A stretch of DNA of 38,206 bases, taken from positions 1 to 38,206 of the forward strand of contig DXHP01000126.1 of assembly GCA_019113305.1 (NCBI GenBank). Reading direction: 5' to 3'. Source of the stretch: Candidatus Ignatzschineria merdigallinarum. GTDB taxonomy: Bacteria > Pseudomonadota > Gammaproteobacteria > Cardiobacteriales > Wohlfahrtiimonadaceae. Position numbers and translations under genes: made by a program. Positions within the stretch are counted from its first letter, which is position 1; the number at the start of each line of letters is the position of its first letter. This document shows, in pieces, positions 2,961 through 25,256 of the stretch. The notes under the pieces are model-generated. The model was not told where the DNA came from. It did not search any database and worked only from the letters and a program-made list of their open reading frames with translations.

Positions 2961-3130
2961 AATCTTCCTTTCGTCGTAATAGATAACGTCTATGTTCAGT
3001 GAAATAATAACGTTTTATGCTAAATCCTGACAAATGTTTATGGGATCCTTGAGTGAGCGGGTTTGTAGGAACATTTAGCGCATATGTGATGTTAATGCAA
3101 ACTTGTGCGAAGAATGCATTATAAAGGGGA

Positions 3131-22291: not shown

Positions 22292-23008
22292 GTGATTTCA
22301 GTGATGAAGGGAACAATGCGAATTTTAACGGCGGGACTATTTTGGGTGTCATCCTTATCAATGGCAGAGCAACTCTATATTAGTGATGCCTTGCAAGCGC
22401 CGATTCGTTCAGGTTCTACTGACAATTACCGTATTATTAAAATGATTAATGCCGGTGAACCTGTTGAGAAATTGTCTGAGCGTAATGGTTATGTACAGAT
22501 TCGTTATGAGGGCGGAAAAACAGGCTGGATTCATCAAAGTTTTTTGATGAATGAACCAAGTGCGCGTAACTATATTGAAGAAGCGAAAGAACGCTATGAA
22601 CCTTTGATGAATGAGAATAATGCATTAGAAGCTCAGATTGAGAAACTAAAGGAGCAGCAAGATAATGTGAAAGATCGCCTCAATGGTGAAAAGTCAGAGC
22701 TTGAGCTTGAATTAGAAGTTTTAAATGCAGAGAATGAAGTGCTTAAATCGGAGATTATTGAGCTTCGTAAACTCAATGAACATGAGATTGAGTTGGTACA
22801 GAAAAATGAAGAGCTGAATAAAAAAGATCATTTACAAAAAGTAGAAATTACCCGTTTAACGCAAGAAAATGCGCGTTTACAATCTGTGAATCGTAGTAGC
22901 GAATGGACTGCCGGCGCTCTGATTTTATTAGGTGGTATTATTTTAGGATCTGCGATTCTTCCGCGTTTATTTGCAAAAACTCGTCGTAAACGTAGTTGGG
23001 ATTTTTAA
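22292..23008 (+). CDS. TIGR04211-type SH3-domain protein (YgiM-like)
   Basis: 238 aa; signal peptide, SH3b (YISDALQAPIRSGSTDNYRIIKMINAGEPVEKLSERNGYVQIRYEGGKTGWIHQSFL), coiled coil, C-terminal TM. Confidence 0.88.
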   Translation: MISVMKGTMRILTAGLFWVSSLSMAEQLYISDALQAPIRSGSTDNYRIIKMINAGEPVEKLSERNGYVQIRYEGGKTGWIHQSFLMNEPSARNYIEEAKERYEPLMNENNALEAQIEKLKEQQDNVKDRLNGEKSELELELEVLNAENEVLKSEIIELRKLNEHEIELVQKNEELNKKDHLQKVEITRLTQENARLQSVNRSSEWTAGALILLGGIILGSAILPRLFAKTRRKRSWDF

Positions 23009-23015
23009 AAAAAGA

Positions 23016-23044
23016 TTGACATTAAAGCGTAGAGCCGCTTTAAT
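23016..23044 (+). promoter_or_regulatory. Sigma-70 promoter driving the metQ leader
   Basis: TTGACA (23016-23021), 17-bp spacer, TTTAAT (23039-23044). Confidence 0.7.
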
Positions 23045-23048
23045 AAAA

Positions 23049-23095
23049 TTTGCCGATTTGAAACAGCTTGCGGGCACAACAGCTAAAGCGTGATA
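23049..23095 (+). ncRNA. Candidate SAM-II/SAM-V-like riboswitch aptamer upstream of metQ genes
   Basis: TTTGCCGATTTGAAACAGCTTGCGGGCACAACAGCTAAAGCG contains the three blocks recalled as conserved in SAM-II (GATTTG, GCTTGC, GCTAAAG) with P1 pairing TGCC/GGCA; starts at expected TSS of the promoter and precedes methionine-transporter genes. Confidence 0.6.
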
Positions 23096-23162
23096 TAGAG
23101 AGTAATATTGATTGATAACGAATACTCAATGCGATTATAAAATCTCTATGCCAAAATAGTTG

Positions 23163-23199
23163 AAAGCCCGTAACGATTGTTACGGGCTTTTCTTTTTTG
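23163..23199 (+). terminator. Rho-independent terminator in the metQ leader
   Basis: AAAGCCCGTAA (23163-23173) / TTACGGGCTTT (23180-23190) followed by T-rich tract TCTTTTTT. Confidence 0.88.
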
Positions 23200-23430: not shown

Positions 23431-24297
23431 ATGATCATGCATAAGACTGAAGCGGCAAGGCGCCGCACATTTAAAAAGCTGCTATTTGCCGGCGCATTAT
23501 TCATCAGTGGATTACTGCTTTCAGGTTGTTTTAATGACACTGAGAAAGCCGACTCTACAGATGCGAAAAGAGAGATCGTATTTGGTACAACCGTAGGTGA
23601 TTTTAGTACTATGGTTCGCGATAAGGTTGGACCGATGTTAGAGCGCCAAGGATATCGTGTGAAGCTGATTGAGTTTACAGATTATGTGCGTCCTAATCTG
23701 GCTTTAGCGGAAGGTTCTTTAGATATTAATATCTTTCAGCATCTCCCTTATTTAGAAGGTTTTAAAGCGCAGCATAATTTAGATATTGAAGCGGCGTTTC
23801 AGATTCCAACAGCGCCTTATGGTTTATATGGCGGTAAAGTGAAAACGCTTGATGGCGCATATTCTGGCATGACGATTTCCGCACCGAATGATCCTTCTAA
23901 TTATGCGCGCGTATTAGTGATCTTAGATTATCTAGGGTGGATTAAGTTGAAGGATAATGTTGATCCTTTAACCGCATCTCGTCATGATATTGCAGAAAAT
24001 CCGATGAATATCGAGATTATTACTTTAGAAGCACCGCAATTACCAAGATCTTTGGAAGATGTGGATTTCTCTGCAATTAATGGCAACTTTGCGATTAGCG
24101 CGGGTTTGAATCCTAAGGATGCAGTGTTCAAAGAGCCTAATTTCACATTTGTTAATTGGTCAGCAGTCAGAAGCGAAGATCGCGATAGCGAGTGGCTTAA
24201 AGATGTGACAGATGCGTTTAATTCAGAGGAATTTAAGCAATTTAGTGCAGAAAGATTTGAAGGTTATCAGTTACCAGAAGTTTGGGAAGCTCAATAG
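23431..24297 (+). CDS. metQ: MetQ/NlpA family lipoprotein (methionine ABC transporter substrate-binding)
   Basis: 288 aa; lipobox LLSGC, IVFGTTVGDFSTMVRDKVGPMLERQGYRVKLIEFTDYVRPNLALAEGSLDINIFQHLPYLEGF, APNDPSNYARVLVIL. Confidence 0.9.
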   Translation: MIMHKTEAARRRTFKKLLFAGALFISGLLLSGCFNDTEKADSTDAKREIVFGTTVGDFSTMVRDKVGPMLERQGYRVKLIEFTDYVRPNLALAEGSLDINIFQHLPYLEGFKAQHNLDIEAAFQIPTAPYGLYGGKVKTLDGAYSGMTISAPNDPSNYARVLVILDYLGWIKLKDNVDPLTASRHDIAENPMNIEIITLEAPQLPRSLEDVDFSAINGNFAISAGLNPKDAVFKEPNFTFVNWSAVRSEDRDSEWLKDVTDAFNSEEFKQFSAERFEGYQLPEVWEAQ

Positions 24298-24410: not shown

Positions 24411-25256
24411 ATGAAAGGTGTTTTTAAAAAATTGGCGTTCGTCTCTTTACTTGGGGCCACAGCTGTCTTAGCAGCTTGCAACTCTGATGAAAAATCAGCG
24501 GATCAAACTACCAGTGCTGATGTGAAGAAAATTCGTATTGGCACAACTGTTGGCGATTTTGCGGATATGGTGACAGATTCAGTGAAACCGCAATTAGAGA
24601 AGAAAGGTTATGATGTTGAGCTGGTGGTATTTACCGATTATGTACTTCCAAATAGAGCGCTTGCAGATGGTTCTTTAGAGATTAATACCTTCCAACATCT
24701 GCCATATTTGAATTCTTTTAAAACGCTAAATGAGCTTGAGTTGACAGAAGTTTTCCAAATTCCAACAGGCCCATTAGGTATTTATAGTGGTCAAAAAGAT
24801 GATTTAAGTGTGATCGCAAAAGGTGCGAAATTTGCAGTGCCGAATGATCCAAGTAACTTTTCACGTTCTTTAGCATTATTAGTCGATGCCGGTATTATTA
24901 CGTTAAAACCGGGCACAGATTCGCTTAAAGCCACGAAAAATGATATTGCTGAGAATCCCCATAACATCGAGTTAGTCATGATCGAAGCACCGCAATTACC
25001 GCGTGTACGACCAGATGTGGATTATGTTGTGATTCCAGGAAATTATGCCGCAAGTTCCAATATCCCATTTTCTGATGCACTCTTTGCAGATCCTGGATTT
25101 GTCTTTATTAACTGGGCAGCTGTTAAAACAGCCGATATTGATGCGCCGTGGTTAAAAGATGTGACAGAAGCTTATAATTCTGAAGAATTTAAAGCATATG
25201 CGGCAGAACGTTTTGCGGGATATAAATACCCACAATCATGGGAAGAAACGAAGTAA
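24411..25256 (+). CDS. metQ: MetQ/NlpA family lipoprotein, paralog of upstream gene
   Basis: 281 aa; lipobox VLAAC, VELVVFTDYVLPNRALADGSLEINTFQHLPYLNSF, VPNDPSNFSRSLALL. Confidence 0.9.
   Translation: MKGVFKKLAFVSLLGATAVLAACNSDEKSADQTTSADVKKIRIGTTVGDFADMVTDSVKPQLEKKGYDVELVVFTDYVLPNRALADGSLEINTFQHLPYLNSFKTLNELELTEVFQIPTGPLGIYSGQKDDLSVIAKGAKFAVPNDPSNFSRSLALLVDAGIITLKPGTDSLKATKNDIAENPHNIELVMIEAPQLPRVRPDVDYVVIPGNYAASSNIPFSDALFADPGFVFINWAAVKTADIDAPWLKDVTEAYNSEEFKAYAAERFAGYKYPQSWEETK

Follow-up and report, generated by a model that had tools for sequence, protein, structure and literature searches.

Architecture of the metQ leader

The window, a stretch of 38,206 nucleotides from Candidatus Ignatzschineria merdigallinarum (contig DXHP01000126.1), contains two metQ-like lipoprotein genes in tandem, preceded by a leader with a promoter, three short conserved blocks, an intervening stem and an intrinsic terminator (Table 1). 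A sequence-only reading of the same DNA had proposed this arrangement, and promoter, blocks, stem and terminator are all found in the window sequence where it had placed them. Small corrections concern helix P1, which is 4 bp long, and the first metQ gene, which probably starts at 23437 and not at the mechanical ORF start 23431. The genes that it took for tandem metQ do both encode MetQ/NlpA lipoproteins, the nearest solved relatives of which are Neisseria GNA1946/MetQ. The second gene is probably co-transcribed with the first, and inspection of the sequence together with a covariance-model search of the window revealed no aptamer between them.

Transcription is expected to start at about 23051, and the aptamer lies ∼350 nt from the start codon with the terminator in between. 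In most Ignatzschineria metQ leaders the −10 box TTTAAT is again found ahead of the aptamer. The isolated terminator has a folding energy of −20.1 kcal/mol. A 10 bp inverted repeat (CATTAAAGCG/CGCTTTAATA, 23020–23045) covers the promoter spacer and the −10 box; it was considered as an operator and rejected, as it is not conserved in the leaders of sister species.

Table 1. Features of the metQ leader and the downstream genes (positions in the window).
Feature	Position	Strand	Basis or remark
Sigma-70-type promoter TTGACA-17-TTTAAT	23017..23045	+	Sequence; −35 TTGACA 23017-23022, 17-nt spacer, −10 TTTAAT 23040-23045
P1 5′ strand UGCC	23051..23054	+	Partner GGCA 23073-76
Third strand GAUUUG	23055..23060	+	Invariant in pattern-selected alignments
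AAACA	23061..23065		Between GATTTG and GCTTGC
P2 5′ strand GCUUGC	23066..23071	+	Core UUGC; P2a strand GC
P1 3′ strand GGCA	23073..23076	+	Within GGGCA 23072-76
L3 CAACA, 5 nt	23077..23081	+	No AAAU segment (present in the long form) and no SAM-V P3 hairpin
P2 3′ strand GCUAAA + GCG (P2a)	23082..23090	+	GCTAAA 23082-87 (U47/A48/A49/A50 equivalents); GCG 23088-90
Aptamer half of antiterminator	23068..23085	+	UUGCGGGC 23068-75, CAGCUA 23080-85
Intervening stem AUAGAGA/UCUCUAU	23095..23149	+	MFE folds; ATAGAGA 23095-101 with TCTCTAT 23143-149
Terminator-side half of antiterminator	23157..23173	+	UAGUUG 23157-62, GCCCGUAA 23166-73
Intrinsic terminator and U tract	23162..23198	+	Hairpin GAAAGCCCGTAAC-gatt-GTTACGGGCTTTT 23162-23191, in U-rich tract to 23198
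metQ-like lipoprotein gene 1 (regulated gene)	23437..24297	+	PF03180 241 bits; PRK11063
metQ-like lipoprotein gene 2	24411..25256	+	PF03180 234 bits

The compact aptamer and its relatives

The aptamer is 37–40 nt in size. The window element, with its 4 bp P1 and 5 nt L3, corresponds to a compact form in which P1 is typically 4–5 bp and L3 5–8 nt; in a long form P1 typically has 6 bp and L3 ∼11 nt with an AAAU segment. The window contains the three-block pattern once, where shuffled sequences predict none, and the 2.3 Mb genome contains it twice, with no occurrence when the pattern is reversed. The pattern is conserved in all nine genomes of the genus, with two exact matches each, and the element is present in 17 of 18 genomes of the Wohlfahrtiimonadaceae and absent from all 14 genomes of the order that lie outside this family.

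No family of Rfam 15 reaches its gathering threshold in the window. In a permissive scan SAM_alpha (RF00521) scores 11.8 bits at 23042–23103 against a cutoff of 36, SAM-V (RF01826) gives no match in the window at E ≤ 10, and the Rfam scans report no window match to SAM-II long loops (RF01726). The trpB, MicC, Trp_leader and Thr_leader matches of the permissive scan are weak, chance-like and driven by the terminator, and were discarded. When the genome of the window was searched with RF00521, only unrelated sites were returned and the true elements were left unlisted, which makes this model useless for the compact form. It reaches its cutoff in four of 13 long-form gammaproteobacterial loci and in none of the 20 compact loci tested, the gonococcal locus included; the Rfam SAM-II model thus misses the whole compact branch.

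Recognition was obtained with a covariance model of our own, R1, made from 48 listed compact matches from Neisseriales, Bdellovibrio, Pelagibacteraceae and others, none of them from the family to which the window belongs. R1 scores 62.1 bits on the window (E = 4.3e-15) and picks out four sites genome-wide, each of which precedes metQ or an oxygenase–metQ operon. It also matches long gammaproteobacterial forms, some of them above the SAM_alpha cutoff, and at E ≤ 0.001 has matches in 119 of 274 sampled Gammaproteobacteria genomes, mostly of long-form length. Through these intermediates the element is homologous to recognised SAM-II/SAM-V members. Of the refuting condition that the earlier reading had set, one half holds, in that no Rfam model reaches its cutoff; the other half does not, because the homologous leaders are conserved and covary.

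A further Rfam family, RF02424 (Bp2_287, a Burkholderia sRNA family), matches the antisense strand of leaders, at L036:2803–2982 and at 23022–23192 of the window. Its consensus can be read as a SAM-II-type leader with its terminator in reverse complement, and the family seems to represent the antisense strand of a leader of this type and to have been entered with the wrong strand.

Covariation was followed in a GTDB scan with a pattern that fixed the P2 blocks and the GGC of the 3′ side of P1 but left the 5′ side of P1 free. Among the matches listed, a complementary P1 strand is present in 124 of 140 distinct sequences and lacking in 16, which is close to our estimate of ∼17 chance matches. 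The fourth P1 pair, which the pattern does not impose, is C–G in 19, U–A in 17 and A–U in two of 38 sequences, without a single mismatch. Also outside the pattern, the GCG after GCUAAA is kept in 107 of the 124 listed members with P1. P2 is complementary but invariant in these pattern-selected alignments and so has no covariation support of its own, and the correlation between P1 and L3 lengths (Spearman 0.33) is modest and was not used as evidence.

The listed matches place the compact form in Ignatzschineria, Wohlfahrtiimonas, Neisseria, Chromobacterium, Aquitalea, Vogesella, Paludibacterium, Bdellovibrio, Pelagibacteraceae and others. Downstream genes were assigned by tblastn with representative proteins. 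Among the listed compact members, 92 have enough downstream sequence to be judged (another seven are cut by a contig or locus end), and 82 of these lie before a methionine gene or before the oxygenase that precedes metQ in the loci checked: metN (45), metZ/metY (9), metQ (8), metX (3), metE (1), metF (1) and the 2OG-Fe(II) oxygenase (15). That metQ follows the oxygenase was verified in three loci (L055, L097 and L208). Matches without P1 lack a methionine gene in 15 of 16 cases, and the sole exception can be read as a canonical alphaproteobacterial SAM-II in which the pattern mis-assigned a block.

In Neisseria species (L104, L035, L070, L103 and others) metNIQ is immediately preceded by a compact element together with a promoter and a terminator; the copy of N. 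gonorrhoeae (L104:4372–4404) is situated between a TTGACA promoter and this operon, which encodes the vaccine antigen MetQ (PMC5278169). No report of the Neisseria metNIQ element was found in the literature searched. Our search for Neisseria metN riboswitches yielded only a report of a SAM riboswitch upstream of metK (PMC5399841) and, for NGFG_00245, a SAM prediction that is not significant (PMC4176332) and may or may not concern the metN element. Reports of SAM-II itself cover alpha-, beta- and gammaproteobacteria (PMC2704228), and close relatives are frequent in Gammaproteobacteria and Neisseriales, so that the initial view of these aptamers as mostly alphaproteobacterial or marine is too narrow.

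Elsewhere, a tandem pair of SAM-II-like elements with a terminator after the first is seen at L224:420–574. The genome of the window also carries three SAM-I (S-box, RF00162) riboswitches (C158:343–457, C208:1595–1710 and C208:1900–1998), which is unusual for a gammaproteobacterium. Two unrelated classes of SAM riboswitch, these and the compact elements, therefore coexist in this genome.

The GATTTG/GCTTGC/GCTAAA core of the SAM-II/SAM-V kind that had been recognised by eye is borne out, with the blocks in order and P1 covarying. In the SAM-V crystal structure the pocket is formed by the U-rich third strand together with U19, U20, U47, A48, A49 and A50, and a GAUUUG-type strand is the major-groove triplex strand in both the SAM-V and SAM-II structures (PMC6061858). 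The window element retains the equivalents of U8/U9/U10, U19/U20, U47, A48, A49 and A50. The position of A18 (SAM-V numbering; A20 in SAM-II) is occupied by a cytosine, here and in nearly all compact and long gamma- and betaproteobacterial members. In SAM-V, A18 contacts A50, which in turn contacts the amino-acid end of SAM (PMC6061858). In the Wohlfahrtiimonas met leaders (L211–L215), AGAUUGC with GCUAAACAG replaces GCUUGC with GCUAAAGC, and A18 is back together with this altered 3′ partner.

The same genome holds further copies on contig C35. One is a transcriptional compact element before an oxygenase gene, and two are intergenic (L208:2006–2044 and 3068–3106) and sit immediately ahead of metQ start codons. 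The intergenic copies and their relatives (L210, L218 and L209) have GCUAAGC instead of GCUAAAGC, and the adenine that is missing is the A50 equivalent. In most of them the segment UUCUCC is complementary both to a linker, GGAGAA, and to the Shine–Dalgarno sequence AGGAG; in one relative GAAAAG and CUUUUC take the place of linker and segment. When the aptamer is locked during folding, the Shine–Dalgarno sequence is paired in most of these copies and relatives. They look like translational versions, which may still bind SAM.

The loss of A50 in these copies and the general exchange of A18 for cytosine are what would be expected if the pocket had drifted, so that the same fold and switch responded to SAH, methylthioadenosine or methionine. 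We consider such a change of ligand unlikely. Apart from A18, the pocket residues, A50 included, are all kept in the window element, the long gammaproteobacterial form that reaches the SAM_alpha cutoff in some loci shares the same GCUUGC/GCUAAAGC core, and the gene contexts are those of SAM switches.

Terminator and antiterminator pairings

In transcripts of the window leader that lack the 3′ arm of the terminator, folding pairs UUGCGGGC with GCCCGUAA and CAGCUA with UAGUUG, and in the MFE folds the intervening stem brings these two halves of the antiterminator side by side. The antiterminator fold is 3.6 s.d. better than those of shuffled sequences (z = −3.6). Addition of the terminator 3′ arm switches the MFE structure from antiterminator to terminator, and locking the aptamer also yields the terminator fold. 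The energy model cannot treat the pseudoknot. At full length the MFE favours the terminator even without ligand, which means that read-through must be kinetic.

These mutually exclusive pairings are conserved. Sister leaders L008 and L009 preserve the arrangement with other letters (GCUAA/UUAGC), the oxygenase-operon leaders of some Ignatzschineria (L001 and L157) pair another stretch (UGCCGAUUU/AAAUCGGCA, GCUUGC/GCAAGC), and in many long forms the terminator arm carries CUGCUUU(A/G)GC opposite GCUAAAGC. Of 55 compact leaders, 40 have the motif GCCCG[CU] in the 5′ arm of the terminator, versus eight of 941 further terminator-like hairpins from these loci; the significance of this difference is overstated, since the leaders are related and the control includes hairpins within genes. 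Pairing between aptamer and terminator arm in compact leaders averages 11.9 pairs, compared with 5.2 with shuffled spacers; for most long forms this test has low power because their spacers are mostly only 4–14 nt.

A terminator with an antiterminator would, taken alone, also be compatible with an attenuator that is read by a protein or an antisense RNA and involves no small molecule. This is very improbable, as the conserved block is predicted to form a compact pseudoknot, carries the residues of the SAM pocket, is common to distant phyla and sits at the predicted transcription start. That the hairpin simply terminates the SH3-domain gene upstream and that the motif is coincidental can be set aside: this gene does end at 23008, only ∼150 bases from the terminator, but the pattern is not expected by chance, it is conserved throughout the genus and in other families, and most leaders have a terminator.

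A SAM-responsive OFF switch is the best model of the metQ leader, since the antiterminator excludes the aptamer fold and is conserved. In the presence of SAM, GAUUUG, GCUUGC and GCUAAA would close into an H-type pseudoknot with a triplex, with P1 formed by UGCC/GGCA and P2 by UUGC/GC-U-AA. This fold would sequester UUGCGGGC and CAGCUA, the terminator hairpin would form and transcription of metQ would stop. Without SAM, two pairings, UUGCGGGC/GCCCGUAA and CAGCUA/UAGUUG, would arise in the nascent RNA ahead of synthesis of the terminator 3′ arm, and the polymerase would read through, so that the methionine-uptake protein is produced. As aptamer folding blocks the antiterminator, SAM is expected to turn transcription off; ligand, direction and co-transcriptional kinetics are all inferred.

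Interpretation and comparison with known SAM riboswitches

The metQ leader is thus very probably an OFF riboswitch that responds to SAM by terminating transcription and has as its sensor a miniature aptamer of the SAM-II/SAM-V superfamily. A terminator-type OFF switch for methionine uptake in a gammaproteobacterium, as first read from the letters, is in this way supported as a prediction, which rests on homology, a conserved core, covariation of P1, gene context and the conserved terminator/antiterminator. Judged by its sequence, the compact element is a real compact variant of the superfamily that Rfam does not recognise. A broader proposal can be put forward tentatively and as a whole: the compact form may be a distinct, Rfam-invisible subclass, among the smallest natural SAM aptamers and a bridge between SAM-II and SAM-V; it may be the main unrecognised regulator of methionine uptake in Neisseriales (gonococcal metNIQ included), Wohlfahrtiimonadaceae and some Bdellovibrio; and its intergenic derivatives without A50 may be a translational sub-variant, perhaps with another ligand.

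The compact form would put a tighter limit on the minimum size of SAM aptamers, and a single genome holds transcriptional and probable translational versions side by side. Leyn et al. reported that betaproteobacterial metNIQ had no known regulator and that their search for one failed (PMC4239095); the compact element provides a testable answer to what controls it. The same study described a betaproteobacterial metXZ RNA element, a pseudoknot with terminator and antiterminator before metX and metZ only (Leyn et al., 2014; PMC4239095), which probably belongs to the same superfamily as the compact form.

The window element was filed as a member of the SAM-II/SAM-V superfamily and under neither RF00521 nor RF01826, because defining features of each were looked for and are absent. 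With SAM-V (RF01826; crystal structure 6FZ0) it shares the 4 bp P1, the A-rich strand before P2 and the binding-pocket residues (PMC6061858) except for A18, which is C in the window. It differs from SAM-V in having no P3 hairpin and no match to the SAM-V model, and in being controlled through a terminator rather than through sequestration of a Shine–Dalgarno sequence near the start codon. Compared with the tandem SAM-II/SAM-V arrangement of Pelagibacter (PMC11508383), the window has a single aptamer and different genes. Two Pelagibacteraceae loci (L099 and L064) have an Rfam-scored SAM-V that is immediately preceded by a compact-type element and its terminator.

SAM-II long loops (RF01726) is another SAM-II variant class (PMC2864571), and by its name has longer loops, a change in the opposite direction to that of the window element. 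SAM-II proper (RF00521, SAM_alpha; crystal structure 2QWY) has, like the window element, a GAUUUG/UUGC/GCUAAA core in order and mostly transcriptional control of methionine genes, the latter being computed in the case of the window element. The H-type pseudoknot of SAM-II is predicted for the window element, where P1 covaries and P2 is complementary but invariant. The window element departs from it in the shorter P1 and L3, in the C in place of A next to UUGC and in the score well below the cutoff. A continuous series of gammaproteobacterial long forms nevertheless links SAM-II to the compact form.
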